57,340 nt of DNA from Anaerocolumna sp. (GTDB lineage Bacteria; Bacillota; Clostridia; Lachnospirales; Lachnospiraceae). Shown here in pieces: positions 29,175 to 49,415 of this stretch. How positions within the stretch are numbered: position 1 is the stretch's first letter; every line of letters starts with the position of its first letter. The notes under the pieces were generated by a model that was not told where the DNA came from, made no database searches, and saw only the letters and a list, made by a program, of their open reading frames with translations. Position numbers and translations under genes: made by a program. The stretch is from positions 1 through 57,340 of the forward strand of contig JARBTX010000017.1 in the NCBI GenBank assembly GCA_029239975.1, written 5' to 3'.

Positions 29175-30878
29175 TTGGATCAAAATTGTCGTGAGTATAT
29201 TCTGAGTGAAGATTACGCAGATTTTATAATAGAATATGGGACTGAACTAGCTATTAATCCATCTGCTGGTACTGTTTGTTATCAGATGATCAACTTTACG
29301 CACACTGCTGTTTATGCCCCAATTGCAGGACTTCCTGATAATTTAATTCAGACTTATGGTTATAGTATATATCCAAGCTGTTTTGGCTTATTAGATATAG
29401 CAAGTTTAGAAGCTTCTGGTATAACCAGAATAAGAAATATTCCGAATTTTAATTTAAATGGTCAGGGAGTTCTTATCGGGATTATTGATACTGGTATAGA
29501 TTATACTCACAATGCATTTAAAAATGCCGATGGTTCTTCTAAAATCATATCTATTTGGGATCAAACGATACAAGAAGGGACACCTCCAGAAGGATTTGTA
29601 TTTGGGTCAGAGTATACTCAAGAACAAATTAACACTGCTTTACTAAGTAATGATCCCTTATCCATTGTTCCTAGTGTAGATACAAATGGCCATGGTACAT
29701 TTTTAGCAGGAATTGCAGCTGGTACAAGAAGCGACGAGAATAATTTTACTGGGGTAGTACCAAATGCAGAAATAGTAGTTGTAAAATTAAAGCAAGCAAA
29801 ACAATTTCTAAGGGATTTCTTTGTAATTCCGAATGATGCTGTTTGTTTTCAAGAAATAGATATTATGTTTGGGTTGAATTATTTGCTCAACGTTGCTAAT
29901 CGTTTAATGAGACCAATATCAATTTGTGTTGGGTTTGGCACTTCACAAGGTGGGCATGATGAACGTGGTATTCTAAGCACTTATCTCTCCACAATTGCAA
30001 CACAACGTGGTGTAGCTGTTACTACTGCGGCTGGTAATGAAGGTAACAGAGGACACCATTTTTATGGCACTATCGAAAGTGGAAGTCAATTTGAAACAGT
30101 TGAATTAAGGGTAGGTGCAAATGACCCAGGGTTCTCCATGGAATTATGGGGTGAAGCACCCAGTTCTTACTCAATAGACATTTTATCGCCAACTGGTGAA
30201 TATATTCCAAGAATCCCTGCTAGATTGGGAGAAACAAGAGTAATACGTTTTATTTTTGAATCCACTATAATAAATGTTGATTATCAATTAGTTGAATCGC
30301 AAACTGGTGATCAATTAATCTTGGTACGTTTTCATAATCCTACAGAAGGAATATGGCGTTTTAGAGTTTATTCCAGTAGTGATCTAACTACGTCTTTTCA
30401 TATATGGTTACCTATTCATAATTTTTTAACTGTAGATACTTATTTTACACAACCAGAGCCTTATGTAACGTTAACATCTCCAGGTAATACCTATATACCT
30501 ATTGTAACTACTGCTTATGATTATACGAATCAAAGTTTATTTATCAATGCAAGTAGGGGTTATACACGAACAGATACGATAAGCCCAGACCTAGCAGCAC
30601 CTGGAGTTAATTTAATTGGACCCACTTTTAACAATGGTTATACCACAATGACTGGAACAAGTTTAGCAGCTGCTCATACTGCAGGTGTGGCGGCAATGGT
30701 GCTCCAATGGGGTATTGTAGAAGGGAATTATACGCAAATAGATACCGTTGAAATAAAAAATCTACTATTGCGTGGGGCTAGAAGGGATCCAAATAATACT
30801 TATCCTAACAGAGATTGGGGTTACGGTATTTTAGATGTATATAATGCTTTCAATAGTTTACGTGGTGATATTCAATAA
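29175..30878 (+). CDS. Csp-like subtilisin-family protease (first copy)
   Basis: 567-aa S8 peptidase of the clostridial Csp/germination type, without signal peptide. Catalytic residues are Asp105 (IIDTGID), His173 (GHGT) and Ser496 (GTSLAAAH); all intact. The long insertion between His and Ser (about 300-420) is the jelly-roll domain known in CspB. Csp proteases sit in the spore and activate the cortex hydrolase SleC at germination; sleC is split 8 kb away in this window. The start is TTG 29175 after GGAG. The second copy follows after 30 bp, so they form an operon. Confidence 0.9.
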   Translation: MDQNCREYILSEDYADFIIEYGTELAINPSAGTVCYQMINFTHTAVYAPIAGLPDNLIQTYGYSIYPSCFGLLDIASLEASGITRIRNIPNFNLNGQGVLIGIIDTGIDYTHNAFKNADGSSKIISIWDQTIQEGTPPEGFVFGSEYTQEQINTALLSNDPLSIVPSVDTNGHGTFLAGIAAGTRSDENNFTGVVPNAEIVVVKLKQAKQFLRDFFVIPNDAVCFQEIDIMFGLNYLLNVANRLMRPISICVGFGTSQGGHDERGILSTYLSTIATQRGVAVTTAAGNEGNRGHHFYGTIESGSQFETVELRVGANDPGFSMELWGEAPSSYSIDILSPTGEYIPRIPARLGETRVIRFIFESTIINVDYQLVESQTGDQLILVRFHNPTEGIWRFRVYSSSDLTTSFHIWLPIHNFLTVDTYFTQPEPYVTLTSPGNTYIPIVTTAYDYTNQSLFINASRGYTRTDTISPDLAAPGVNLIGPTFNNGYTTMTGTSLAAAHTAGVAAMVLQWGIVEGNYTQIDTVEIKNLLLRGARRDPNNTYPNRDWGYGILDVYNAFNSLRGDIQ

Positions 30879-30908
30879 ATAAAATATATATAATTTAAGG
30901 AGTTTATC

Positions 30909-32615
30909 GTGGATCAAGATTGTATTAGTAGAATAATGAGTGAAGATTATGCAGATTTTATTTATGAATATACTAGAGAATATGAAGCAATTAGAGCAGA
31001 TCCGAATACATGTATGGATATTGTAGATAATGTATATGCCATACTTTATTACCCAATAAGCTTAATCCCAGCAAATTCTATACAATTATATGGTTATAGT
31101 GTTTATCCAAGATGTTTTGGTTTACTTGACATAAGTAGTAATGAAGCTTCGGGTATTCGTAGACTTCAAAATATTCCTTCCTTAGATTTAAGAGGGAACG
31201 GAGTTCTTGTAGGTATTATTGACACGGGAATTGATTATACCCATAAAGCTTTTAAGAATGCAGATGGTACTACCAGAATACTCTCTATCTGGGACCAAAC
31301 AATTCAAGATGGTCCACCACCAGAAGGCTTTTATTATGGTACGGAATACACCAAAGACCAAATTAATGTGGCTCTTTTAGATGAAAATCCAATCTCTTTG
31401 GTTCCATCCATAGATGAAATTGGTCACGGTACTATGTTAGCAGGAATAGCTGCTGGTTCTATCGATGAAAGTAATAGCTTTACTGGTGTTGCAAACCAAT
31501 CTGAAATGGCTATCGTAAAATTAAAACCAGCTAAACGATTTATTAAAAACTTTCTTCGAATACAAGAAGATAAGTTATGCTTCCAAGAAAATGATATCAT
31601 GCTTGCAGCAAAATATCTGATTAATTATGCAGCCAGACTAAAAAGACCAATTTCTATTTGTATCGGACTAGGCTCAACACAAGGAGCACATGATGCACGC
31701 GGAAATTTAAATTCTTATTTAACATCTTTAGCACAACAAACTGGTGTCGGAATGGTCATTGCAGCTGGTAATGAAGGTAATAGTGGAAGTCATTTTCAAG
31801 CAACTTTAAACCCTGGTGCAAAATCTGTCCCTCTTGAGCTTCGAGTTGGTGCCAATGAATATGGATTTACCATGGAACTTTGGGGTGATGCTCCAAATAC
31901 CTTTTCCATTGATATTATGTCGCCTACCGGTGAATACATACCTATAATACATGCTAGATTAGGAGAATCTAGAGTGTTAAACTTTATTTTTGAAGAAACT
32001 ACAATAAATTTAGATTTTCAGTACGTAGAGGCACAAACTGGCGCTCAATTAATTTTAATAAGATTCCTAAAACCTACAGAAGGAATCTGGCGATTTCAAG
32101 TATACCCAAGCTTAAATTTTAATGCTCACTTCCATATATGGTTACCACTGAGACAATTTCTAAATAGTGAAACATACTTTACAGCACCTGACCCAGAATA
32201 TACTTTAACATCACCAGCAAATTCAATTATACCTATTGTAAGTACTGCATATGACCATGTAACCCAAAGCTTATACTTAAGTGCTAGCAGAGGTTATACT
32301 AGAACAAATAACATAAAACCTGACATAGCTGCTCCTGGTGTAAACTTAGTAGTCCCTACTTTTAATAATGGATATATAACAGGGACTGGTACTAGTCTTG
32401 CTGCTGCACATGTTACTGGTATTTCGGCTTTATTACTAGAATGGGGAATTATTATGGGAAATTTAACTACAATGGGTAGTGTCGAAATAAAAAATTTACT
32501 AATTCGTGGTGCAAGACGTGATGTAAATGTAATGTATCCAAATAAGCAATGGGGATATGGAATTGTAGATGTTTATAGAGCCTTTGAAAGTTTACGTGGT
32601 GATTCTGGTCAATAA
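30909..32615 (+). CDS. Csp-like subtilisin-family protease (second copy)
   Basis: 568-aa paralog of the preceding gene with the same layout and intact Asp105, His173 and Ser496. Start GTG 30909 follows AAGGAG. Because both copies keep the triad, neither is an obvious equivalent of the catalytically dead CspC or CspA receptors of Clostridioides difficile. Expression is expected in the mother cell together with the upstream copy. The pair ends in a branched terminator. Confidence 0.9.
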   Translation: MDQDCISRIMSEDYADFIYEYTREYEAIRADPNTCMDIVDNVYAILYYPISLIPANSIQLYGYSVYPRCFGLLDISSNEASGIRRLQNIPSLDLRGNGVLVGIIDTGIDYTHKAFKNADGTTRILSIWDQTIQDGPPPEGFYYGTEYTKDQINVALLDENPISLVPSIDEIGHGTMLAGIAAGSIDESNSFTGVANQSEMAIVKLKPAKRFIKNFLRIQEDKLCFQENDIMLAAKYLINYAARLKRPISICIGLGSTQGAHDARGNLNSYLTSLAQQTGVGMVIAAGNEGNSGSHFQATLNPGAKSVPLELRVGANEYGFTMELWGDAPNTFSIDIMSPTGEYIPIIHARLGESRVLNFIFEETTINLDFQYVEAQTGAQLILIRFLKPTEGIWRFQVYPSLNFNAHFHIWLPLRQFLNSETYFTAPDPEYTLTSPANSIIPIVSTAYDHVTQSLYLSASRGYTRTNNIKPDIAAPGVNLVVPTFNNGYITGTGTSLAAAHVTGISALLLEWGIIMGNLTTMGSVEIKNLLIRGARRDVNVMYPNKQWGYGIVDVYRAFESLRGDSGQ

Positions 32616-37739: not shown

Positions 37740-38128
37740 TCAGCTTAGTTCAGCAATTCTAGTAACAGCTACATAAACAGCCGATATTTTATACCAAGTT
37801 GGTAAATCAACAATTCCATTAGCTGGCAAACCAAACACTTGCTGGAATGCTCTTACTGCAGCTTCTGTCTGTGGTCCAAATACGCCGTCTACGGCAATCT
37901 TTGGAATTACTGTATATACGTCAGAAATCGCATTTAATTGTTCTTGCATTTGTCTAACACTTGCACCTCTTGACCCTATGGTTAGATTCGAACCCGGCCA
38001 TGATGAAGGTACACCTGCAACTTCATTGGTTGAGTTAATATACATATTAGAACCATAAAAATTCCTTAGTATTGAAATTGCATCCATACCTTGGTCACCT
38101 AAATCTTTTGAACCCCATTGGGTCATCC
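37740..38128 (-). CDS. sleC: SleC cortex-lytic enzyme, C-terminal segment (gene split by element)
   Basis: This reading frame encodes the last 127 residues of a SleC-type spore cortex-lytic enzyme: TQWGSKDLGDQGMDAI, the end of the SpoIID-like catalytic part, and then a peptidoglycan-binding domain (IGSRGASVRQMQEQL, VDGVFGPQTEAAVRAFQ). It has no ribosome binding site before its first ATG (38126), as expected for the 3' part of a gene. It lines up in the same frame with the N-terminal part at 43799-44684 when the two copies of GGTCATCC (38121-38128 and 43791-43798) are joined, giving ...QCPGWM-TQWGSKDL... The intact protein would be 424 aa, close to known SleC lengths (about 430). SleC is made as a zymogen and cut by Csp proteases at germination. 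Confidence 0.88.
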
Positions 38129-38140
38129 GTATTGTAGTAG
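38112..38140. other. Left junction of the sleC element (attL-like)
   Basis: Reading the plus strand: sleC-derived CCCCATTG, core GGTCATCC (38121-38128), then element-derived GTATTGTAGTAG. The element half is the reverse complement of the half at the right junction (TTACAATAC), so the circularised element would have arms TACAATAC and GTATTGTA around the core. Confidence 0.85.
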
Positions 38141-38259
38141 GGTATGGTGAATTATAACGAATGTTAAGCAGGAGAATTCTTCAATTTAAGACCAAATTGC
38201 TCTATTACATATTAGAATGGATTTAACCTAATATTCATATTAAAAACTAGTAATTAAAA

Positions 38260-38283
38260 AGCCCCATAGTTTATAATGGGGCT
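38260..38283 (-). terminator. Terminator after the element's coiled-coil genes
   Basis: Perfect AGCCCCAT/ATGGGGCT stem with an 8-nt loop, followed on the minus strand by TTTTT. It lies 20 nt after the stop at 38303 and keeps element transcripts from reading into the sleC C-terminal part. Confidence 0.9.
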
Positions 38284-38302
38284 ATAGTAAATAATATTAA
38301 TT

Positions 38303-38764
38303 TTAAATTTCCTTCTGTTTGTTAATAATTATTTTATCGACTTTATCCATAAATTTTTTTTTATCATTACCAAGTTGTTTTTCATACTTTTTAGCAAGTG
38401 ATTCAGCATATACACTTAACTCATAATCAATACGATTTATTTCATTTTGTCTAAACAAATAAATTTCACTCGCACTTTCTATTTGCTTCATTAATATATA
38501 AGATCTTATATCATATATATATTTTAAATGAAATCCGTTCATACTTTGATCGATAGATTGGAGATGTTTCTGTGTCTGAGATTCAAAGATTTGAATAATT
38601 TTACTTGAAATCAATTTATTCGTTGCTGATACCGTATTAATATCCACTGTGTTTTGCACTTCTGAGATATTGTTAGGAGCTGCTTGTACATAAAAAGTGC
38701 CAAATAAGATATTGAAACTAATTATTAAAATAATAATTCGGTTTATATACTTTTTATATATCAA
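38303..38764 (-). CDS. Secreted coiled-coil protein of the sleC element (hypothetical)
   Basis: About 153 aa. TTG 38764 is the likely start, since AGGAGGGGG lies a few bases upstream; an earlier ATG at 38797 would place the site inside the gene. A signal peptide (INRIIILIISFNILFGTFYVQA, cleavage after AQAA-like QAA) precedes a charged, helical mature region without Cys. Family not recognised. It is the second gene of a pair with 38824-39270 (gap about 60 bp). Its location inside the element and export suggest a spore-envelope or cell-surface role, but this is not shown. Confidence 0.6.
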   Translation of the reverse strand: MIYKKYINRIIILIISFNILFGTFYVQAAPNNISEVQNTVDINTVSATNKLISSKIIQIFESQTQKHLQSIDQSMNGFHLKYIYDIRSYILMKQIESASEIYLFRQNEINRIDYELSVYAESLAKKYEKQLGNDKKKFMDKVDKIIINKQKEI

Positions 38765-38823
38765 ACAACCCCCTCCTTCTCTCTTCGTTTTTAACATGAA
38801 TAAAGTCTACTAACTAAGTTATC

Positions 38824-39270
38824 TTATTTACCTTTTAAATATCTGTTAATTTCAGCATCTATCGCTGCTTTTCCTTCGGTTACTTTTGTATTAACTTTAT
38901 TTTTTATTTCATTTTCAGCATTTGTTTTTCCTTGATTAATACCATCTTTTATTTCGGCCTTTGCTGCTTCTGTATATTCTCTGACCTGAGCTTCACCTGA
39001 TGTAACGTGATTTTGTTTTATTTGATCTAGTTCTCCTATTGCTTTATCAACATTTGCTAAATCAGCTTGTAGGGATTCTTTATAACTATTATTTACTCTA
39101 TCCATATCGCTATTTGTGGTATTTATTAATCTATCTTTAACATTGTCAAATACCTGTTTTACCATTATAAATATATTAGAGTTATTTGAAGCTGCGTAAG
39201 CCTGTACACTACCTAGTGATAGACAAAGTACCATAAATGCAATTAAAAATGTTGATTTTTTCTTGTTCAT
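38824..39270 (-). CDS. Secreted alanine/lysine-rich coiled-coil protein of the sleC element (hypothetical)
   Basis: 148 aa with a clear signal peptide (STFLIAFMVLCLSLGSVQAYAA) and a mature part of long amphipathic helices (VNNSYKESLQADLANVDKAI, TEAAKAEIKDGINQGKTNAE) resembling apolipoprotein-like or stress-type helical repeats. Start ATG 39270 follows GGAGG. Family unknown. It is divergent from the Csp-like gene at 39487 and shares a 216-bp control region with it. Confidence 0.7.
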   Translation of the reverse strand: MNKKKSTFLIAFMVLCLSLGSVQAYAASNNSNIFIMVKQVFDNVKDRLINTTNSDMDRVNNSYKESLQADLANVDKAIGELDQIKQNHVTSGEAQVREYTEAAKAEIKDGINQGKTNAENEIKNKVNTKVTEGKAAIDAEINRYLKGK

Positions 39271-39486
39271 ATTTATCCTCCATTTGAATGTTTAGATTTA
39301 TATTCTTTTTGTTCTTTAACACAAATCAGATTATAATATATATTATGTAAACTAACAATGTAAAATTATTGGGAAAAATAAATGCTTAGTCAAGAAGAGA
39401 ATATCTATCTTTCACGAATAGAGGGTATTTTCATTATATATATATCATACTAATTAATATAATTAATTAACCCTTTGAGGTATATA

Positions 39487-41184
39487 ATGGATGATCATTG
39501 TATTGAACGAATTACAAGTAATGATTATGCTGACTTCTTAACCGATTATTCGAGAAATTTAGAAGTACTACGAAACGATCCCAATATCTGCTTAGATATA
39601 ATTGACGAAAATATTGCAATTGTTTATGTTCATCAAAATCTTGTCTTACCAAACGCGGTTCAGGTTTATGGGTATAATGTTTTTCCAAGGTGTTTTGGAT
39701 TATTAGATACGAAAAGTGTTGAAGCATCTGGTGTGACAAAATTAAGAAATATACCAACACTCAATCTCCAGGGGCATGGAGTATTGATTGGGATAATCGA
39801 TACAGGAATAGATTATACTCATAATGCTTTTAAAAACATTGATGGTACGTCAAAAATATTATCTATGTGGGATCAAACAATTCAAAGTGGACCACCACCA
39901 AAAGACTTTTTATTTGGTACAGAATATACAAAAGATCAAATTAATGAGGCATTACTTTCTGATAACCCTATGTCAATAGTTCCTAGTATGGATGAAATAG
40001 GACACGGTACATTTTTAGCAGGTATTGCTGCTGGTTCTATTTCACAGGAAAATGGTTTCTCTGGAGTTTCCCCAGGTGCTCAATTAGCAGTTGTCAAATT
40101 AAAACCTGCCAAACCATACTTAAAAGAATTCCTAGCAATACCACCAGATGCCATTTGTTTTCAAGAGAATGATATTATTTTAGGGGCAAAATACCTTGTT
40201 AGCGTTGCTAGCAGACTACAAAGACCACTTGCTTTATGTATTGGACTTGGAACTTCACAAGGTGCACATGACGAAAGTGGATTTTTAAGTTCCTACCTTT
40301 CAACAATTGCTAGAAAAAATCTAGTAGCAGTAGTTATAGCCGGTGGAAATGAAGGTAATAGTGGTCATCATTATTACGGCGTATTCAAAAATGATGATAA
40401 ATATAAAACAGTAGATTTAAAAGTTGGACCTAATGTGTACGGTTTTACCATGGATCTATGGGGAAGTGCACCTAGTTCATTTTCTATTGATATTTTATCC
40501 CCCACTGGTGAATTAATTGAAAAAATACCAGCAAGAATAGGTGAGTCACGTAAGCTAAAGTTTCAAGATGAAAAAACAATTATTAAGATAGATTACTTAT
40601 TTGTTGAAGCTCAAACTGGTTCTCCTTTAATTTTGATGAGATTCCATAATCCAACGGAAGGTATTTGGCGATTTAATATATACAATAATTTAGGGTTTGA
40701 TTCAGATTTTAATATATGGCTACCTGTAACTTCATTTTTAGATAACCAGACTTATTTTTTAGAGGCTAATCCTTATACTACAATGACTCATCCAGCAAAT
40801 ACTATTATACCAATAAAAGTTACTGCATATGATCCTTCTGATAGAAGTTTGTATATTGATGCTAGCAAAGGTTTTACTAGGAATAATTTTGTAAGTCCTG
40901 ATATCACTGCTCCTGGAGTTAATATAATTGGACCTGCACTTAATAATGGATATATTACTAAATCAGGAACTAGTATAGCTGCTGCACATGTAGCAGGTAT
41001 TGCAGCCATTCTATTAGAATGGGGCTATGTTCGTGGTAATTTTACACGAATTAATAGTGTAGAGATAAAAAACTTTATTATTCGCGGAGCAATCAGAGAC
41101 ACAAGTATAACCTATCCTAGCAGAGAATGGGGTTATGGCATATTAGATATTTATAATTCGCTATTAAACTTATATGATGATTAA
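39487..41184 (+). CDS. Csp-like subtilisin-family protease carried by the sleC element
   Basis: 565-aa S8 peptidase, paralog of the two at 29175-32615 with identical spacing of Asp105, His173 and Ser496 (IIDTGID, GHGT, GTSIAAAH). ATG 39487 is chosen because GAGG lies 7 nt upstream and the protein then starts MDDHCIE like the other copies; the TTG at 39475 overlaps that site. Csp proteases activate pro-SleC, so the element that interrupts sleC carries a relative of the enzyme acting on its product. It could also be a plain cargo gene. Upstream sequence has an AC-N16-CATTATAT stretch that resembles mother-cell promoters with one mismatch. Confidence 0.88.
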   Translation: MDDHCIERITSNDYADFLTDYSRNLEVLRNDPNICLDIIDENIAIVYVHQNLVLPNAVQVYGYNVFPRCFGLLDTKSVEASGVTKLRNIPTLNLQGHGVLIGIIDTGIDYTHNAFKNIDGTSKILSMWDQTIQSGPPPKDFLFGTEYTKDQINEALLSDNPMSIVPSMDEIGHGTFLAGIAAGSISQENGFSGVSPGAQLAVVKLKPAKPYLKEFLAIPPDAICFQENDIILGAKYLVSVASRLQRPLALCIGLGTSQGAHDESGFLSSYLSTIARKNLVAVVIAGGNEGNSGHHYYGVFKNDDKYKTVDLKVGPNVYGFTMDLWGSAPSSFSIDILSPTGELIEKIPARIGESRKLKFQDEKTIIKIDYLFVEAQTGSPLILMRFHNPTEGIWRFNIYNNLGFDSDFNIWLPVTSFLDNQTYFLEANPYTTMTHPANTIIPIKVTAYDPSDRSLYIDASKGFTRNNFVSPDITAPGVNIIGPALNNGYITKSGTSIAAAHVAGIAAILLEWGYVRGNFTRINSVEIKNFIIRGAIRDTSITYPSREWGYGILDIYNSLLNLYDD

Positions 41185-41344
41185 GCATTTATACAATACA
41201 TTAATTAAAATTACTAGCAATTAAACGTGAGCTCCTTATTTTGTTTAAGAGCTTATGTCTAAAGTACTCCTGATGGCGCAAAAACCCACATTACACTTAC
41301 CAGCTAAAGCAATTTATTAGGTTTGTCCAACTAATCCATACCGC

Positions 41345-41509
41345 TTAAGAGGTTTTATCTTCAGCTACTGGCTTATAACCAACGGATCGTAAAGACTTAT
41401 CATTTAACTTAAGTCCAATCTCTTTTTGCTGTTCTGATGGTATAGAATCCCATGACTGATACTCACCATTAATTTTTACTTGTGCTCTTCCTATTATTAC
41501 TTTACTCAA
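41345..41509 (-). CDS. 54-aa small protein of the sleC element
   Basis: Short gene starting at TTG 41509 after AAGGGTGAT and ending TAA 41345. Protein starts MSKVIIGRAQVKINGEYQSW and contains PSEQQKEIGLKLNDKSLRSVGY. It is basic-acidic mixed, without Cys or membrane helix. Small proteins of this kind are, as I recall, common companions of large serine recombinases in Clostridia, but the family name is not known to me. A directionality factor for excision is one possible role. Confidence 0.6.
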   Translation of the reverse strand: MSKVIIGRAQVKINGEYQSWDSIPSEQQKEIGLKLNDKSLRSVGYKPVAEDKTS

Positions 41510-41655
41510 ATTTATCACCCTTAATATATGTATGATTAACTGCTTGTACTTGTTGATTTATTTTTAATATCATATTTGGTCTCATAACTATATAAACCTA
41601 TTAAAAATATTTTAATAAGCATCGCTTTTCTCACAGTAAAATACGATTAAAATTA

Positions 41656-41874
41656 ATGGAAGAAAAGAATTTTATGCTAAAATATCATAACGCAGCTGTT
41701 ACTACATCTAAGGATAAACGGGTTCAAAAGTATTATTATTTCGTAGTAAAATATAAAACATCCGAAGGAGATGATAAATATCTTGCTTTTTGGAGTACAA
41801 TAATGGAGTACTCAAAATTAAATAAAATGAAAAATTTAAAGTTAAATGATAACCCAACTTCTTATCAATTGTAA
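41656..41874 (+). CDS. 72-aa hypothetical protein of the sleC element
   Basis: Protein starting MEEKNFMLKYHNAAVTTSKD, with many Lys, Tyr and Ser residues. No motif is recognised and the upstream ribosome binding site is weak, so the start may be the internal ATG at residue 7. A hairpin followed by TTTT lies about 80 nt downstream. Confidence 0.4.
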   Translation: MEEKNFMLKYHNAAVTTSKDKRVQKYYYFVVKYKTSEGDDKYLAFWSTIMEYSKLNKMKNLKLNDNPTSYQL

Positions 41875-41949
41875 AATAAAAAAGGCATCTCTACTACCAA
41901 AATATCGTTCGTCCATAAAAATTCGCACTAAATATATTTGGTACATAAC

Positions 41950-41990
41950 AAGGATTGGATTCTGTATTGTACAGGGCTCAGTCCTTTTAG
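41950..41990 (+). terminator. Possible terminator after the 72-aa gene
   Basis: AAGGA/TCCTT outer stem with an inner CTGT/ACAG hairpin followed by TTTTAG. Weak but in the expected place. The rest of 41875-42230 shows no gene. Confidence 0.45.
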
Positions 41991-42234
41991 TTTGCATCTA
42001 ATTTTTTCTATTTTTATTGTCGTATTGTACTTATTATTATCTGTATTTGTTCTACAACATATATTATAAATTCATCACTTCATTTTGACATATCTCATAC
42101 GTAAACCATCCATGATATGTTCCTTATAAGCGTCACCATTTTTTTGGTAACTTAACTCCTAATGTGACTGTTTCTACTCATATTCAATTTCACTTACACA
42201 ATATCGCAATAACACTCTGGTTTGGCTAACCAGG

Positions 42235-42263
42235 GTATTTTTATGCCCTGAATATCATACAAT
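42235..42263 (+). promoter_or_regulatory. Candidate sigma-E promoter of the serine recombinase
   Basis: GTATTTT (42235-42241), a 14-nt spacer and CATACAAT (42256-42263) match the Bacillus sigma-E consensus closely (-10 CATACANT). B. subtilis spoIVCA, the skin recombinase, is sigma-E dependent. Weakness: transcription would begin about 42270, within or at the ribosome binding site AAGGAG (42269-42274). Confidence 0.45.
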
Positions 42264-42282
42264 TTGATAAGGAGCTGATAAT

Positions 42283-43734
42283 ATGCGAACAGCGGCACTC
42301 TATATCCGTGTAAGTACGGATAAACAGGAGGAGCTTTCTCCTGATGCCCAAAAAAGACTTTTAATTGAATATGCAGAGAAACATGGTATTCTGATATCTG
42401 AACAGTACATCTTCATGGAAGGTGGTATCTCTGGTAAAAAAGCGGATAAACGTCCAAAGTTTCAGCAAATGATAGGATTGGCCAAGTCTAAGAATCATCC
42501 CTTTGATGTAATCTTAGTTTGGAAGTTCTCTCGTTTTGCTAGAAATCAAGAAGAAAGTATTGTTTATAAATCTCTATTAAAGCAAAATAATATTGATGTT
42601 ATTAGTATATCTGAACCGTTGATTGATGGACCTTTCGGCTCTCTTATTGAACGTATCATTGAATGGATGGATGAATACTACTCTATTCGACTTGCTGGTG
42701 AAGTTTACAGAGGTATGACTGAAAAAGCTCTTAAAGGTGGATACCAAGCAAGTCCACCCCTTGGCTATAAAATAGTCCATGCTGGTGAACTTCCTGAAAT
42801 TGTTCCCGGTGAAGCTGAAATTGTAAAGACCATATTTCAAAAGTATGTAGTTGAAGGACTTACTTTATTTCAGATTGCTAGATACTTAAATGCTCTTGGA
42901 TTTAAGACTAAGCAAGGCAAGAACTTTGAAAGACGATCCGTGGAATACATTATTCAGAATCCTATGTATAAAGGTTACATCCGATGGAACCGTGTCAATA
43001 ATGCAACCAAAGAAATTAAGGACGAGTCTGAATGGATCACAGAAAAAGGTCAGCATGAACAAATCATCTCAGAAGAACTATTTGACCAAGCTCAGAAAAA
43101 GTTCACAACCGAATGTACTCCTTCTAAAGCAAGACCTGTTACGGAATACAAACATTGGTTATCCGGTCTTATCAAATGCTCAAATTGTGGTCGTAGTATG
43201 ACAGCATCTAAAGTAAAACAGTCTCGCTTTATGCATTTTACCTGTAATGGATATACCAAAGGTAAATGTCCGGTTTGTAATAGTGTCTCTGAAAATCAAT
43301 TAATACCTGCTATTCTTGGTGTGCTTCAGAAAGTTATCTCTTCTGGAGAAGTTGAATACACTGTTGCTAAGAGAGTAACTAATTCATCCGATACATATCT
43401 ACTTGAACAACAGCTCTTAAGATTGGATGAAAAATATAAACGAATAAAGGCTGCATACATAAACGGAATCGACACTTTAAAAGAGTATAAACATAATAAA
43501 GAATTAATTCAGAAAGAATCAGACAGTCTTAATAATCAATTAAAAGAGCTAAAGAAAACAATGGTCCAGGACAACAATCAAGAGATGGTGAATCGGATTA
43601 ATAGCGTTTATAAATTAATCACGGATGATAAAATAGATAATCTGACTAAGAACGCTTCTATGAAATCAATTATTGAAAAGATTGTCTTTAATAAAAAGGA
43701 AGGGTTATTGGATGTTTTCTTTTACTATGACTAA
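42283..43734 (+). CDS. Large serine recombinase (SpoIVCA/CisA-like) of the sleC element
   Basis: 483-aa site-specific recombinase. The N-terminal resolvase domain has catalytic Ser11 in YIRVSTDKQ, VWKFSRFARN and the helix E region; the recombinase domain (about 160-270) contains PPLGYKI and NPMYKGYIRWN; a zinc ribbon (IKCSNCGRSM...CPVC, about 300-345) and a coiled coil follow. Length is normal for phage and skin recombinases (about 480-510). Start ATG 42283 follows AAGGAG. Its stop lies 57 bp from the right core, the usual attP-side position. It should excise the element by recombining the two GGTCATCC-containing junctions. Confidence 0.93.
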   Translation: MRTAALYIRVSTDKQEELSPDAQKRLLIEYAEKHGILISEQYIFMEGGISGKKADKRPKFQQMIGLAKSKNHPFDVILVWKFSRFARNQEESIVYKSLLKQNNIDVISISEPLIDGPFGSLIERIIEWMDEYYSIRLAGEVYRGMTEKALKGGYQASPPLGYKIVHAGELPEIVPGEAEIVKTIFQKYVVEGLTLFQIARYLNALGFKTKQGKNFERRSVEYIIQNPMYKGYIRWNRVNNATKEIKDESEWITEKGQHEQIISEELFDQAQKKFTTECTPSKARPVTEYKHWLSGLIKCSNCGRSMTASKVKQSRFMHFTCNGYTKGKCPVCNSVSENQLIPAILGVLQKVISSGEVEYTVAKRVTNSSDTYLLEQQLLRLDEKYKRIKAAYINGIDTLKEYKHNKELIQKESDSLNNQLKELKKTMVQDNNQEMVNRINSVYKLITDDKIDNLTKNASMKSIIEKIVFNKKEGLLDVFFYYD

Positions 43735-43775
43735 CATCCATAACCCGCTTGAACAAAGGATTTCTTAACCTACAT

Positions 43776-43806
43776 ACCTTATTACAATACGGTCATCCAA
43801 CCCGGA
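43776..43806. other. Right junction of the sleC element (attR-like)
   Basis: Reading the plus strand: element-derived TTATTACAATAC, core GGTCATCC (43791-43798), then sleC-derived AACCCGGA. The phase of the core relative to the sleC reading frame is the same as at 38121-38128 (ATG at 43796-43794 and 38126-38124). Confidence 0.85.
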
Positions 43807-44684
43807 CACTGTACGTTTCTACCATCACAATATTGAGTAAGTATAGGCTGTTTTACATTAGGTCTTGATAGGTAATTATTAAAAAGACTATCAACAATTG
43901 TACTTATATTACTGAAAATATTTCTACCAGGCATCCATTTATGATCAAATGCGGTTGAAGACGTTATGGTAAAATTGTAGCCTTGATTTCTGTACCATTC
44001 TGTAAATACACGGTTTAAAGTAAAAGACATAATTGCTAATACATTCGCCTGAATGGTTGATTCTGGCCAAGTAGCATATATTTCACTGGATGCAACATTC
44101 TTAATATAATCTCTATAACGTATATAATAATTTGCAGCTGATGTATCAGATGGTGGTCCATCATGTACGACAACAAACTCTGGTATTACAACATTTAATA
44201 ATACGATTTCGCCAGATTCCTGGGTTGGTTTTATTTCTGCTTCCGCAATTTTAGGCGGATAGTCACCAAATAAAGTGTGAGGTCCTATTACAAAAAGGTT
44301 AGTCGCAGCTTCATTTACTGCTGGTAACAAAGAAATTGGTTGAACGGCTGTAACCTGTGGTAATATTTCTGCTCCGTTTACTTCAACAGTTCGAAAACCT
44401 TCTGCTATCGTTCGAATGGTGTATTCTGAATAAGGTTGCTCTACAGAAGATGAATCTAGGCTATATTCGATAGGTGGTGCTGGTAACTCAATTTCTGGAG
44501 TTCGACCAATTTCATCCGTAGTAACTTCTTCTACTACAGAGGTTGGATCACCTGTATAAGATATTTGAACCCTTGCATTCGGAATAGGTCTGAAACCTGC
44601 TTCTGTTGCAACATCTACCTGCAATCTACCAGTTGATTGCGTCTCCATCTGTGCAGGATAAACTCTATAATTTCTAATATCCAT
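43782..44684 (-). CDS. sleC: SleC cortex-lytic enzyme, N-terminal segment (gene split by element)
   Basis: 300 codons as it stands: 297 are native SleC (44684-43794) and the last few, reading into the element, are artefactual before stop TAA at 43782. It starts MDIRNYRVYP, has N-terminal Ig-like pro-region (GRLQVDVATEAGFRPI) and a SpoIID-like catalytic part (YATWPESTIQANVLAIMSF, LNRVFTEWYRNQGY). The usual remaining SleC sequence, including the peptidoglycan-binding domain, lies at 37740-38128. ATG 44684 follows AAGGAAT. A truncated product without the binding domain is probably inactive, so germination cortex hydrolysis would need excision of the element. A sigma-K-like promoter is upstream. 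Confidence 0.88.
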   Translation of the reverse strand: MDIRNYRVYPAQMETQSTGRLQVDVATEAGFRPIPNARVQISYTGDPTSVVEEVTTDEIGRTPEIELPAPPIEYSLDSSSVEQPYSEYTIRTIAEGFRTVEVNGAEILPQVTAVQPISLLPAVNEAATNLFVIGPHTLFGDYPPKIAEAEIKPTQESGEIVLLNVVIPEFVVVHDGPPSDTSAANYYIRYRDYIKNVASSEIYATWPESTIQANVLAIMSFTLNRVFTEWYRNQGYNFTITSSTAFDHKWMPGRNIFSNISTIVDSLFNNYLSRPNVKQPILTQYCDGRNVQCPGWMTVL

Positions 44685-44713
44685 GTTTATTCCTTAAATA
44701 ATATGATCACTGT

Positions 44714-44740
44714 TAATATATGCTATAAAAAGCGGAAAGT
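44714..44740 (-). promoter_or_regulatory. Candidate sigma-K promoter of sleC
   Basis: On the minus strand AC (44740-44739), 16 nt, then CATATATTA (44722-44714) fit the sigma-K pattern AC-N16/17-CATANNNTA. The start codon is 30 nt downstream. Mother-cell expression agrees with SleC biology. Confidence 0.5.
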
Positions 44741-46815: not shown

Positions 46816-47184
46816 CTAAGACTTCTTAGATATCCCTGCTTTTTTACAACACTTCTTTCTTCGGTAAGTAAGAGAAGGAACATGTATTCTTCCTTTATCA
46901 TTAAGAAAGAAAAACTCATCATTGTTATACCCATTTCCAAGATTTAACTTTCTAATCAATTCAATGATTTCTCTTGCCTTAGAAGTAAAATATACTTTTT
47001 GTAATTCTGCCTTTGTCTTTGCATTATCTACAACAATGTACTTTGAAATATTCCAAGAACCATCCGTTTTTTGAATCTGTTCTTTTACTTTGATACGTTG
47101 AATATTAAGATAATTCACCTCAATATCACTGAATATCAAAGCTACAATCTCACCTAATCTTAGTGAAAGCCAATAATATTGCAA
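46816..47184 (-). pseudogene. Tyrosine recombinase fragment (middle part)
   Basis: 122-aa piece with the box I arginine region SLRLGEIVALIFSDI and the following strand region of a Tn916-type integrase; the HxLR and catalytic tyrosine regions are missing after SKKS-stop. Remnant of an integrase whose ends have been lost. It faces away from the plus-strand fragment at 47300-47482, so the two are from different elements or an inversion. Confidence 0.8.
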
Positions 47185-48392: not shown

Positions 48393-49415
48393 TTAATAAT
48401 CCCATGAAATCTTTTCAAGTTTTTTTAGTAACTTTTTACCTAACTCTGGTTCTATACTATTAATAAAATAAACTTTTCCGTATAGATGCTCTTTGTAAAA
48501 AGATTTATTACAATTTATATAAGACAAGTGATCTGATACACCGTATTTTATACAATAATATATTTCCTGTTCTAGTTCTTTTTTATATTTTTTCGGGACA
48601 GTGACTTTATTATTATTAACAATTAAGCCAGTTACCTCTTGGCGCTGATTTTTGTATGAAATACGAGTTTTTTTATCGTTCAAATCAAACCCTTCATCAT
48701 TTATAATTGTTGTAACCATATTTAAAATATTTTTAATACCCTTATTACCTGATATAGATATATCATCTGCATATCTTGTATAATCGCATTTATATTTTTT
48801 TGACAAGGATGATATTCTCTTGTCTAATTTTAAGCAAACAATATTAGACAATGCTGGGCTTGCAGGTGATCCTTGCGGTAAATAGCCCTCAAATGTACAA
48901 AGTTTTGACAAGACATAACTTATGTCTTTTGTATAACCATAATAATAAAAAATTCTAAAAATACTTTCTTGATCAATTGATGGAAAAAAATCTTTAATAT
49001 CAATGTTAATAACACAATCTTTATTTGTATGAACTATTGCATTTGTAACTATTGATTTATTTTTACAAAATCCATTTGCATATTTCGATACATGTAAATT
49101 ATTTAGAATATTATCTAGTATCCATCTTTGTATATATTTTAAAATTAAAGCAGGTGACTGTATAATACGTTGACCACCACTTTTTTTTGCAATATTATAT
49201 TCGGTATAATAATTATATTCACAATTTATAATAGTATTTAATTCAGCATATTTTATTCCAAGTAATAATGCTAAATGTACCCTGTCAAAAATTACAGGAA
49301 GATTTGCTTTGAATAATCTTGAAGCATATTGCATACACCTATTTATAAATTCATTGTCCTTATTATGCTTTAATAATTCATTTTTTAATTCTTCTAAATA
49401 ATTTTCTTTTTCCAT
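48393..49415 (-). CDS. Retron-type reverse transcriptase
   Basis: 340-aa RT. Retron-specific motifs are both present: NAIVH (NAxxH, region X) and EVTGL (VTG, region Y). Catalytic palm motifs are INIDIKDFFPSID, LPQGSPASP and YADDISIS (YADD). Length is normal for retron RTs (about 300-340 aa). It would reverse-transcribe part of a noncoding RNA to give multicopy single-stranded DNA joined to RNA. Start ATG 49415 follows AGGTGA and lies 20 nt after the closing arm of the second ncRNA unit. The product presumably binds its RNA and the upstream effector proteins. Confidence 0.95.
   Translation of the reverse strand: MEKENYLEELKNELLKHNKDNEFINRCMQYASRLFKANLPVIFDRVHLALLLGIKYAELNTIINCEYNYYTEYNIAKKSGGQRIIQSPALILKYIQRWILDNILNNLHVSKYANGFCKNKSIVTNAIVHTNKDCVINIDIKDFFPSIDQESIFRIFYYYGYTKDISYVLSKLCTFEGYLPQGSPASPALSNIVCLKLDKRISSLSKKYKCDYTRYADDISISGNKGIKNILNMVTTIINDEGFDLNDKKTRISYKNQRQEVTGLIVNNNKVTVPKKYKKELEQEIYYCIKYGVSDHLSYINCNKSFYKEHLYGKVYFINSIEPELGKKLLKKLEKISWDY

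Follow-up and report, generated by a model that had tools for sequence, protein, structure and literature searches.

The spore genes sigK, spsM, spoVFB, gerE and yabG are described as split by intervening DNA in those parts of PMC10747680 and PMC5595907 that treat such elements. The described rearrangements affect the building of the spore. Here we analyze a 57,340-nucleotide stretch of DNA from Anaerocolumna sp. (contig JARBTX010000017.1, hereafter the window) in which sleC, the gene of a germination hydrolase, is interrupted at codon 297 by a 5,670-bp element with its own recombinase gene (37740-44684, minus strand). The sleC case, if true, would affect the ability to germinate. The original prediction, made from the sequence alone, held that sleC is rebuilt in the way that sigK is rebuilt from skin, and knew of no described sleC case; we likewise found none in searches of an open-licence library, some of them aimed at sleC. 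The split gene and its junctions comprise the following features.

43791..44684, minus strand: N-terminal part of sleC (N-part), codons 1-298 up to the junction; its open reading frame (43782-44684, 300 aa) extends into the element to 43782.
37740..38128, minus strand: C-terminal part of sleC (C-part), open reading frame 37740-38126 (128 aa), with the end of a SpoIID/LytB-like domain and a peptidoglycan-binding domain.
38121..38128: attachment-site core GGTCATCC on the C-part side, from sequence and comparison between elements.
43791..43798: attachment-site core GGTCATCC on the N-part side, from sequence and comparison between elements.
38129..38146: arm on the element side, matching 43773-43790 in inverted orientation (17 of 20 positions, counting the core edge).
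43773..43790: arm on the element side, matching 38129-38146 in inverted orientation (17 of 20 positions, counting the core edge).
44698..44722, minus strand: two CATA-type boxes, CATATATT and CATATTAT, upstream of sleC.

Are these two parts one gene? As predicted, they lie on the same strand and share a junction sequence, the two GGTCATCC copies being 5,670 bp apart. With the element omitted, they join in frame through WM-TQWGSKDL to give 427 codons from stop to stop and 424 from the ATG. The metagenome protein P0006 (423 aa, N-part 92% identical) has the same join without an element and is an uninterrupted natural relative; its SpoIID_LytB match at residues 296-319, weak and below the curated cut-off, spans the junction. 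Residues 60-351 of C. difficile prepro-SleC (9h68) align to residues 18-298 of the N-part (E 4.8e-87), an alignment that the original prediction had proposed, and the C-part matches PG_binding_1 (1.6e-17). Kinship to the solved prepro-SleC and the C-terminal peptidoglycan-binding domain identify the protein as SleC, and N-part orthologs are 73-79% identical in most genomes of the genus. A reading in which the parts are separate working genes could draw on the NTG, a possible start codon, with which the C-part begins in the 16 elements read. However, this NTG follows from the TG exchange point described below and is CTG in G030 and G201, no ribosome-binding site was seen by eye before the C-part, and the cut lies inside the SpoIID/LytB-like match of P0006. 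With the domain match cut and the start codon accidental, we rejected this reading as very improbable.

The ends of the element are equally informative. The inverted repeat of the arms is not due to chance, because it matches at 17 of 20 positions here whereas the 281 GGNTGNCC sites of the 80 host loci fetched all stay below an arm match of 11 of 16. Judged from sequence, the ends have the layout of an attP of a large serine recombinase that integration has split into halves. In sleC-strand orientation the chromosomal bases are GGA-TG next to the N-part and TG-ACC next to the C-part; in the window the bases inside the element coincide with the chromosome as well, which produces the 8-bp repeat. 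Across 16 complete elements, GGA-TG is invariant next to the N-part and TG-A[CG]C next to the C-part, whereas the core varies on its element side; between 10 and 18 of 20 arm positions match. Around the TG in the middle of GGATGACC (sleC strand), the element-side bases vary between genomes and the chromosome-side bases hardly do, which makes this TG the best candidate for the exchange point. All 16 elements yield the joined peptide WM[TS]QWGS with 127-129 residues to the end, and the frame is restored in 16 of 16; a 17th complete element (G492) was missed by the search pattern used for this comparison. A short direct repeat with inverted arms at both ends, a germination gene split within its reading frame and restoration of that frame on removal are shared with skin-like elements. 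A CATATATT or CATATACT box precedes sleC in 10 of 13 stretches from the genus.

How widespread is this arrangement? The window's genome is one of 23 in which we found sleC cut at the same codon. They span five families within a single order: the genus contributes 6, the rest of its family 11 and four further families 6. A short open frame served as the flag, candidates with a near-complete N-part were fetched from three surveys (8 + 10 + 8), and 22 of these 26 are cut at the codon. The figure of 23 is a lower bound, since two of the surveys, which overlap (397 genomes, 253 matching; 344 genomes, 199 matching), list their matches in part. Short frames with partial matches (G003, G004, G039, G058, G069 and G352) were left out. 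Several candidates were set aside: sleC is intact at a contig edge in G353 and G663; G042 (L046) has a contiguous gene with an in-frame TAG directly after the usual cut site, possibly a pseudogene or a sequencing error; G502 shows a frame change of unclear nature and was left uncounted; and L128, first flagged as cut, proved intact on recheck by eye. Within the genus, six genomes are cut, two (G003, G004) are too incomplete, and seven are intact, so that relatives without the element, a comparison suggested by the original prediction, do exist. Ten of 80 sleC loci from named records, some of them genomes already counted, are cut, including those of Mediterraneibacter massiliensis and Anaerostipes butyraticus, and 70 are intact. 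Among the best 120 of 7,995 SleC-N proteins scored, 38 end at the cut site, 79 are intact and 3 lack the search motif.

Might the split be an assembly artefact? The window comes from a metagenome bin of 4.8 Mb in 180 contigs, 92% complete and with 6.5% contamination, which would permit such an error, but the same structure occurs in the single-contig genomes G005, G007, G009 and G010, and we rejected this explanation as next to impossible.

Both halves with a recombinase between them were recovered in 17 of the 23 genomes. These elements measure 2.6, 2.6, 2.6, 2.7, 3.3, 3.3, 3.7, 3.8, 4.7, 5.7, 5.9, 6.0, 6.5, 7.8, 7.8, 24 and 43 kb, 15 of the 17 being smaller than 8 kb in fetches of ~20 kb, which favour small elements. 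G231 has the recombinase and no C-part within 14 kb, and the junction alone was seen in G065, G203, G247, G343 and G686. The recombinase runs antiparallel to sleC in 13 of the 17 elements, whereas in G262, G290, G467 and G447 (L061, L064, L231 and L234) it adjoins the C-part and runs parallel to sleC; these two orientations suggest separate origins of the elements. In the window, the element contains the following genes and signals for recombination.

42283..43734, plus strand: large serine recombinase, 483 aa, with Resolvase, Recombinase and Zn_ribbon_recom domains and a match to the PHROG integrase family (7.9e-115).
42256..42263, plus strand: CATACAAT box resembling a sigma-E/K -10 element, before the recombinase; some other recombinases lack it.
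41345..41518, minus strand: p57, a small protein and candidate recombination directionality factor, of a family common to the elements; function predicted.
41531..41554, minus strand: promoter-like motif AACAAGTACAAGCAGTTAATCATA upstream of p57, resembling the AC-spacer-CATA mother-cell promoters found in part of PMC3789822; function predicted.

The serine-recombinase element of 5.67 kb is as the original prediction had described it. Its enzyme combines Resolvase, Recombinase and zinc-ribbon domains, which makes it a large serine recombinase, and its catalytic motif is intact, as expected of a skin-like element with its own site-specific recombinase: YIRVST aligns with the TP901-1 integrase, and YIRVST or YVRVST occurs in 21 of 21 recombinases compared. 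Domain, NCBIfam and PHROG scans of the window element found no phage family other than the integrase.

What could turn such a recombinase toward excision? In 12 elements compared, the recombinase is present in all and p57 is the other widespread small gene, found in 8 of 12 by a profile built from those 8 and weakly in a ninth (G262); the other open frames common to the 12 overlap the recombinase. An enlarged profile of the family (25 sequences, some chosen via the motif) matches a gene in 15 of the 17 complete elements, 11 in the training set and 4 outside it (G441, G447, G467 and G492, E 5.5e-6 to 3e-10). The same profile matches in 41 of 75 viral loci and in 4 of the 80 sleC loci from named records. 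These four all belong to the cut set of 10; L078 was in the training set under another name, and the other three were outside. Pfam, PHROGs and PDB sequences gave only weak, chance-level matches to p57, a structure search with its model (pLDDT 86.7) gave no match at E 0.001, and a protein search returned only four close relatives.

The motif before p57 was scored with a matrix of 29 columns from six genus sites, at a threshold of our own choice. Sites occur in four of six non-genus elements, in three of which (G201, G262 and G290) they lie directly before the small protein, and in 29 of the 75 viral loci, where 26 of the 29 are followed by an open frame of at least 35 residues starting within 45 nt. 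The host loci, 1.58 Mb in all, contain 6 sites, of which one is inside a sleC element. When the motif is relaxed, it turns up 13 times in the same 1.58 Mb and, at a distance from p57, also in the elements of G091 and G002. The pattern AAYAWGTACAR-N9-CATA occurs 11 times in 15 whole genomes of the genus (backward control, 2): in the sleC element of all six interrupted genus genomes (~130 nt before p57 in G005), once before a p57-like gene of a prophage in the G014 spore gene cotJC, and four times elsewhere. Depending on the genome, the motif contains AC-N17-CATA or AT-N17-CATA; these come close to the sigma-K (AC) and sigma-E (ATA) promoters of C. difficile, in which sleC is a sigma-K gene (part of PMC3789822). 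The skin-Cd factor CD1234 is controlled by sigma-E and SpoIIID, according to the relevant part of PMC5025042. Given the spread of the family, the motif and the CD1234 precedent, we read p57 as a putative factor coupling excision to the mother cell; position and resemblance make it a likely candidate directionality factor. Alternatively, excision could be random and non-developmental, leaving a clone with a mixture of spores with and without SleC as a form of germination bet-hedging. Such behaviour has a parallel in yin in yabG, for which PMC10747680 describes excision in a fraction of the population at every time point examined, and the CATA box before the recombinase is not conserved, but the mother-cell-like motif before p57 is conserved in 6 of 6 genus elements; we regard random excision as quite improbable.

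Is a gene in two pieces still maintained? We calculated pairwise Nei-Gojobori dN/dS within the genus, where dS is near saturation and the values are rough. Median dN/dS of the N-part is 0.088 in six interrupted genomes (12 of 15 pairs unsaturated) and 0.063 in seven intact ones (13 of 21); the C-part gives 0.055 (9 of 15) and 0.057 (14 of 21), and carA 0.051 (12 of 15) and 0.055 (8 of 15; one genome without carA omitted). No internal stop codons were met in either half. By this comparison, both split halves in Anaerocolumna are under purifying selection like uninterrupted sleC, a host gene still selected as a whole being a further property of skin-like elements, here seen in the genus at near-saturated dS. 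In G005, G007 and G010 the recombinase, p57 and a gene of 118-132 aa lie in one order, and these three genomes cluster together in the recombinase tree (90/79) as well as in the sleC tree (95/91), with weakly differing inner branching. Because the trio shares one element and its sleC halves show dN/dS of 0.035-0.093, sleC appears to have remained selected while split. The 118-132-aa gene (L033:9212-9601, L034, L035) is strongly conserved (0.047-0.077); no PHROG family was found for its G007 copy. The window recombinase instead joins the recombinases from the elements of G002 and G009 (92/86); the window element was therefore probably acquired separately from that of the trio, and the partial congruence of the recombinase and sleC trees makes several independent insertions likely. 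A Mantel test gave r 0.75 (0 of 5000 permutations, n=21) and carries no weight, because the test does not separate vertical descent from host-bound phages.

Where do the elements come from? Relatives of the recombinase occur in 75 IMG/VR loci, and a sleC part is present in 14 of these. The 43-kb element (G009) is a tailed prophage with portal, head protease, tail sheath and tape measure genes, and the 24-kb element has a tape measure gene. An unsplit attP (dyad 13/16) adjoins the recombinase in L163-L166 and L168-L169. In L163 it is flanked by an endonuclease on one side and by an endolysin and pre-neck appendage on the other; in L168 an endolysin and tail fibre lie beyond the site and an unnamed phage family before it. 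Since these sites lie among phage genes, relatives of the sleC elements exist in non-integrated form. In a phage collection the best recombinase is 39% identical. The elements most likely descend from temperate phages using sleC as attB, and some lineages most likely retain little beyond the recombinase, p57 and some cargo.

The simplest rival is then an ordinary phage or remnant that uses sleC as a landing site, sleC being lost meanwhile and excision occurring only on phage induction. The 14 viral loci with a sleC part, the 43-kb prophage, and the intact second SleC and SleB/CwlJ-type proteins described below fit this explanation, but the dN/dS of the halves is like that of uninterrupted genes, also in the three species sharing a small element; 15 of 17 elements are below 8 kb, that of the window having no phage family beyond the integrase; a p57-like gene is kept together with the recombinase in 15 of 17; and no other SleC was found in 15 of the 23 interrupted genomes. 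We therefore consider a mere landing site unlikely. Instead, reversible excision is very likely, because of the recurrence at one codon, the purifying selection, the candidate directionality factor and the phages with an unsplit attP. We think it probable that the recombinase-bearing element is excised in the sporulating mother cell, so that full-length SleC is made and packed in the spore; the split, the ends and the frame are observed, whereas the excision is deduced.

How might this operate? The recombinase would integrate at TG in GGATGACC, and p57 would turn it toward excision. The AC-N17-CATA motif would act as a sigma-E/K-type promoter restricting p57 to the mother cell, and excision would then occur just before sigma-K-type expression of sleC. 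The forespore would retain the element while the mother cell dies, so that the split would be inherited unchanged. This scheme draws on general background: the fate of mother cell and forespore, the general behaviour of phage directionality factors and the SpoIIID consensus.

Several observations weigh against this interpretation. An intact second SleC of ~428 codons, 51% identical, is encoded in the window's genome (G000:C62:11636-12508, L048), as are SleB/CwlJ-domain proteins, present in 17 of 17 interrupted genomes tested (of 23). Besides the near-saturated dS and the incomplete congruence of the trees, the trio's p57 (0.18-0.26) and recombinase (0.10-0.15, one pair saturated) evolve faster than sleC. 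The recombinases of phages with an unsplit attP are 54-55% identical, use of sleC by these phages is suggested by core and arms, and exact searches of viral contigs for three attP arm types found none. No p57 was found with the enlarged profile in the G049 and G544 elements, nor the motif at the matrix threshold in G030 and G091. The roles of p57 and its promoter are proposed from position and resemblance, and the motif could instead be a phage control site, given that the p57-like gene of the G014 prophage lies near a repressor-like gene. Of the predicted skin-like rebuilding of sleC, the anatomy and the comparison with skin hold, while we infer excision in this organism's sporulating cells, and its timing, from sequence.

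The predicted dependence of germination on the rearrangement is not established, given the second SleC and the SleB/CwlJ-domain proteins. The second SleC lacks a GGATGACC site and should therefore be immune to the sleC elements. Another SleC occurs in 8 of the 23 interrupted genomes, including all six Anaerocolumna; in the other 15, some of them incomplete bins, the split copy is the only SleC found, which makes dependence more plausible there.

The window element also carries cargo absent from the original prediction, which had likewise not mentioned the 57-aa small protein.

39475..41184, plus strand: Csp-type subtilase, 569 aa, matching CspC (8.8e-90) and CspBA (1.5e-88) of NCBIfam, both below the curated cut-off.
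38824..39270, minus strand: open reading frame of a 148-aa exported-looking protein, with weak family matches only.
38303..38797, minus strand: open reading frame of a 164-aa exported-looking protein, with weak family matches only.

Csp proteases activate pro-SleC in other species. The D, H and S catalytic motifs of the subtilase are visible by eye, and the element-borne enzyme may also influence SleC activation. Its closest other copy in its own genome (G000:C25) is 69% identical, two further Csp-type proteases lie outside the element at 29175-32615, and the genome has 11 Csp-type matches; because such proteins are numerous there, the gene looks like recruited cargo. No Csp-type gene was found by tblastn in 11 other elements (the 24-kb and 43-kb ones in pieces). 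Near the sleC locus, translations indicate a tyrosine-type integrase fragment (46816-47184) and a reverse-transcriptase-like open reading frame (48393-49415).

A second spore gene, cotJC, is split in six of eight Anaerocolumna genomes searched, the window's included. It is cut after about residue 31 in G009 (L262, L263) and G014 (L241, L264), with a recombinase of the sleC type alongside (61-63% identical), and after about residue 62-64 in G000:C14 (L256), G005 (L257), G007 (L258, L260) and G010 (L259, L261), by elements of ~6-7.5 kb whose recombinase is only distantly related (27%). A further cut near residue 170 leaves cotJC of G007 and G010 in three pieces. All eight genomes retain at least one intact cotJC.

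We tentatively entertain, without leaning toward it, a broader scenario: a phage family may have wired its recombinase and directionality factor into the mother-cell programme, so that SleC across the order, and in Anaerocolumna also CotJC, would be rebuilt through DNA excision in each sporulating mother cell and a germinable spore would need several programmed deletions. For genome annotation, the cut at one codon in five families and the 38 of 120 best SleC proteins ending there mean that SleC may be called truncated in many bacteria and their germination ability misjudged. Recombinase elements of 2.6 kb and a candidate directionality-factor family are handy for studying phage recombination tied to development, and cultured hosts exist: Anaerocolumna sedimenticola, whose element measures 3.3 kb, Mediterraneibacter massiliensis and Anaerostipes butyraticus.

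How does sleC compare with known systems? Like skin in sigK (B. subtilis, and skin-Cd of C. difficile), its element carries a large serine recombinase, lies in a late mother-cell gene and would leave a restored frame upon exact excision. Skin-Cd has a small directionality factor that in C. difficile is under sigma-E and SpoIIID (PMC5025042, in part), whereas no relative of p57 was recognised in the libraries searched, CD1234 itself being outside the comparison; moreover, the target is a germination hydrolase gene rather than a sigma factor. Gin in gerE (B. cereus ATCC10987) is likewise a non-phage gene-intervening element with a serine recombinase and an extra factor, GirX (PMC5595907, in part), but measures 28.6 kb with three recombinases, whereas sleC elements go down to 2.6 kb with one. 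SPbeta in spsM, vfbin in spoVFB and yin in yabG also represent phage or phage-like DNA splitting a spore gene (parts of PMC10747680 and PMC4191935); they affect other genes, and sleC is hit at one codon in five families by anything from a full prophage to a tiny element. The best NCBIfam matches of the recombinase are to CcrB (8.1e-48), a Ccr of SCC, and XisF of the fdxN element (7.5e-32), far below curated cut-offs and with different targets. The principle is already known from skin-like elements; what sleC appears to add is a germination enzyme as the target, a small-protein family, very small elements and recurrence across an order.

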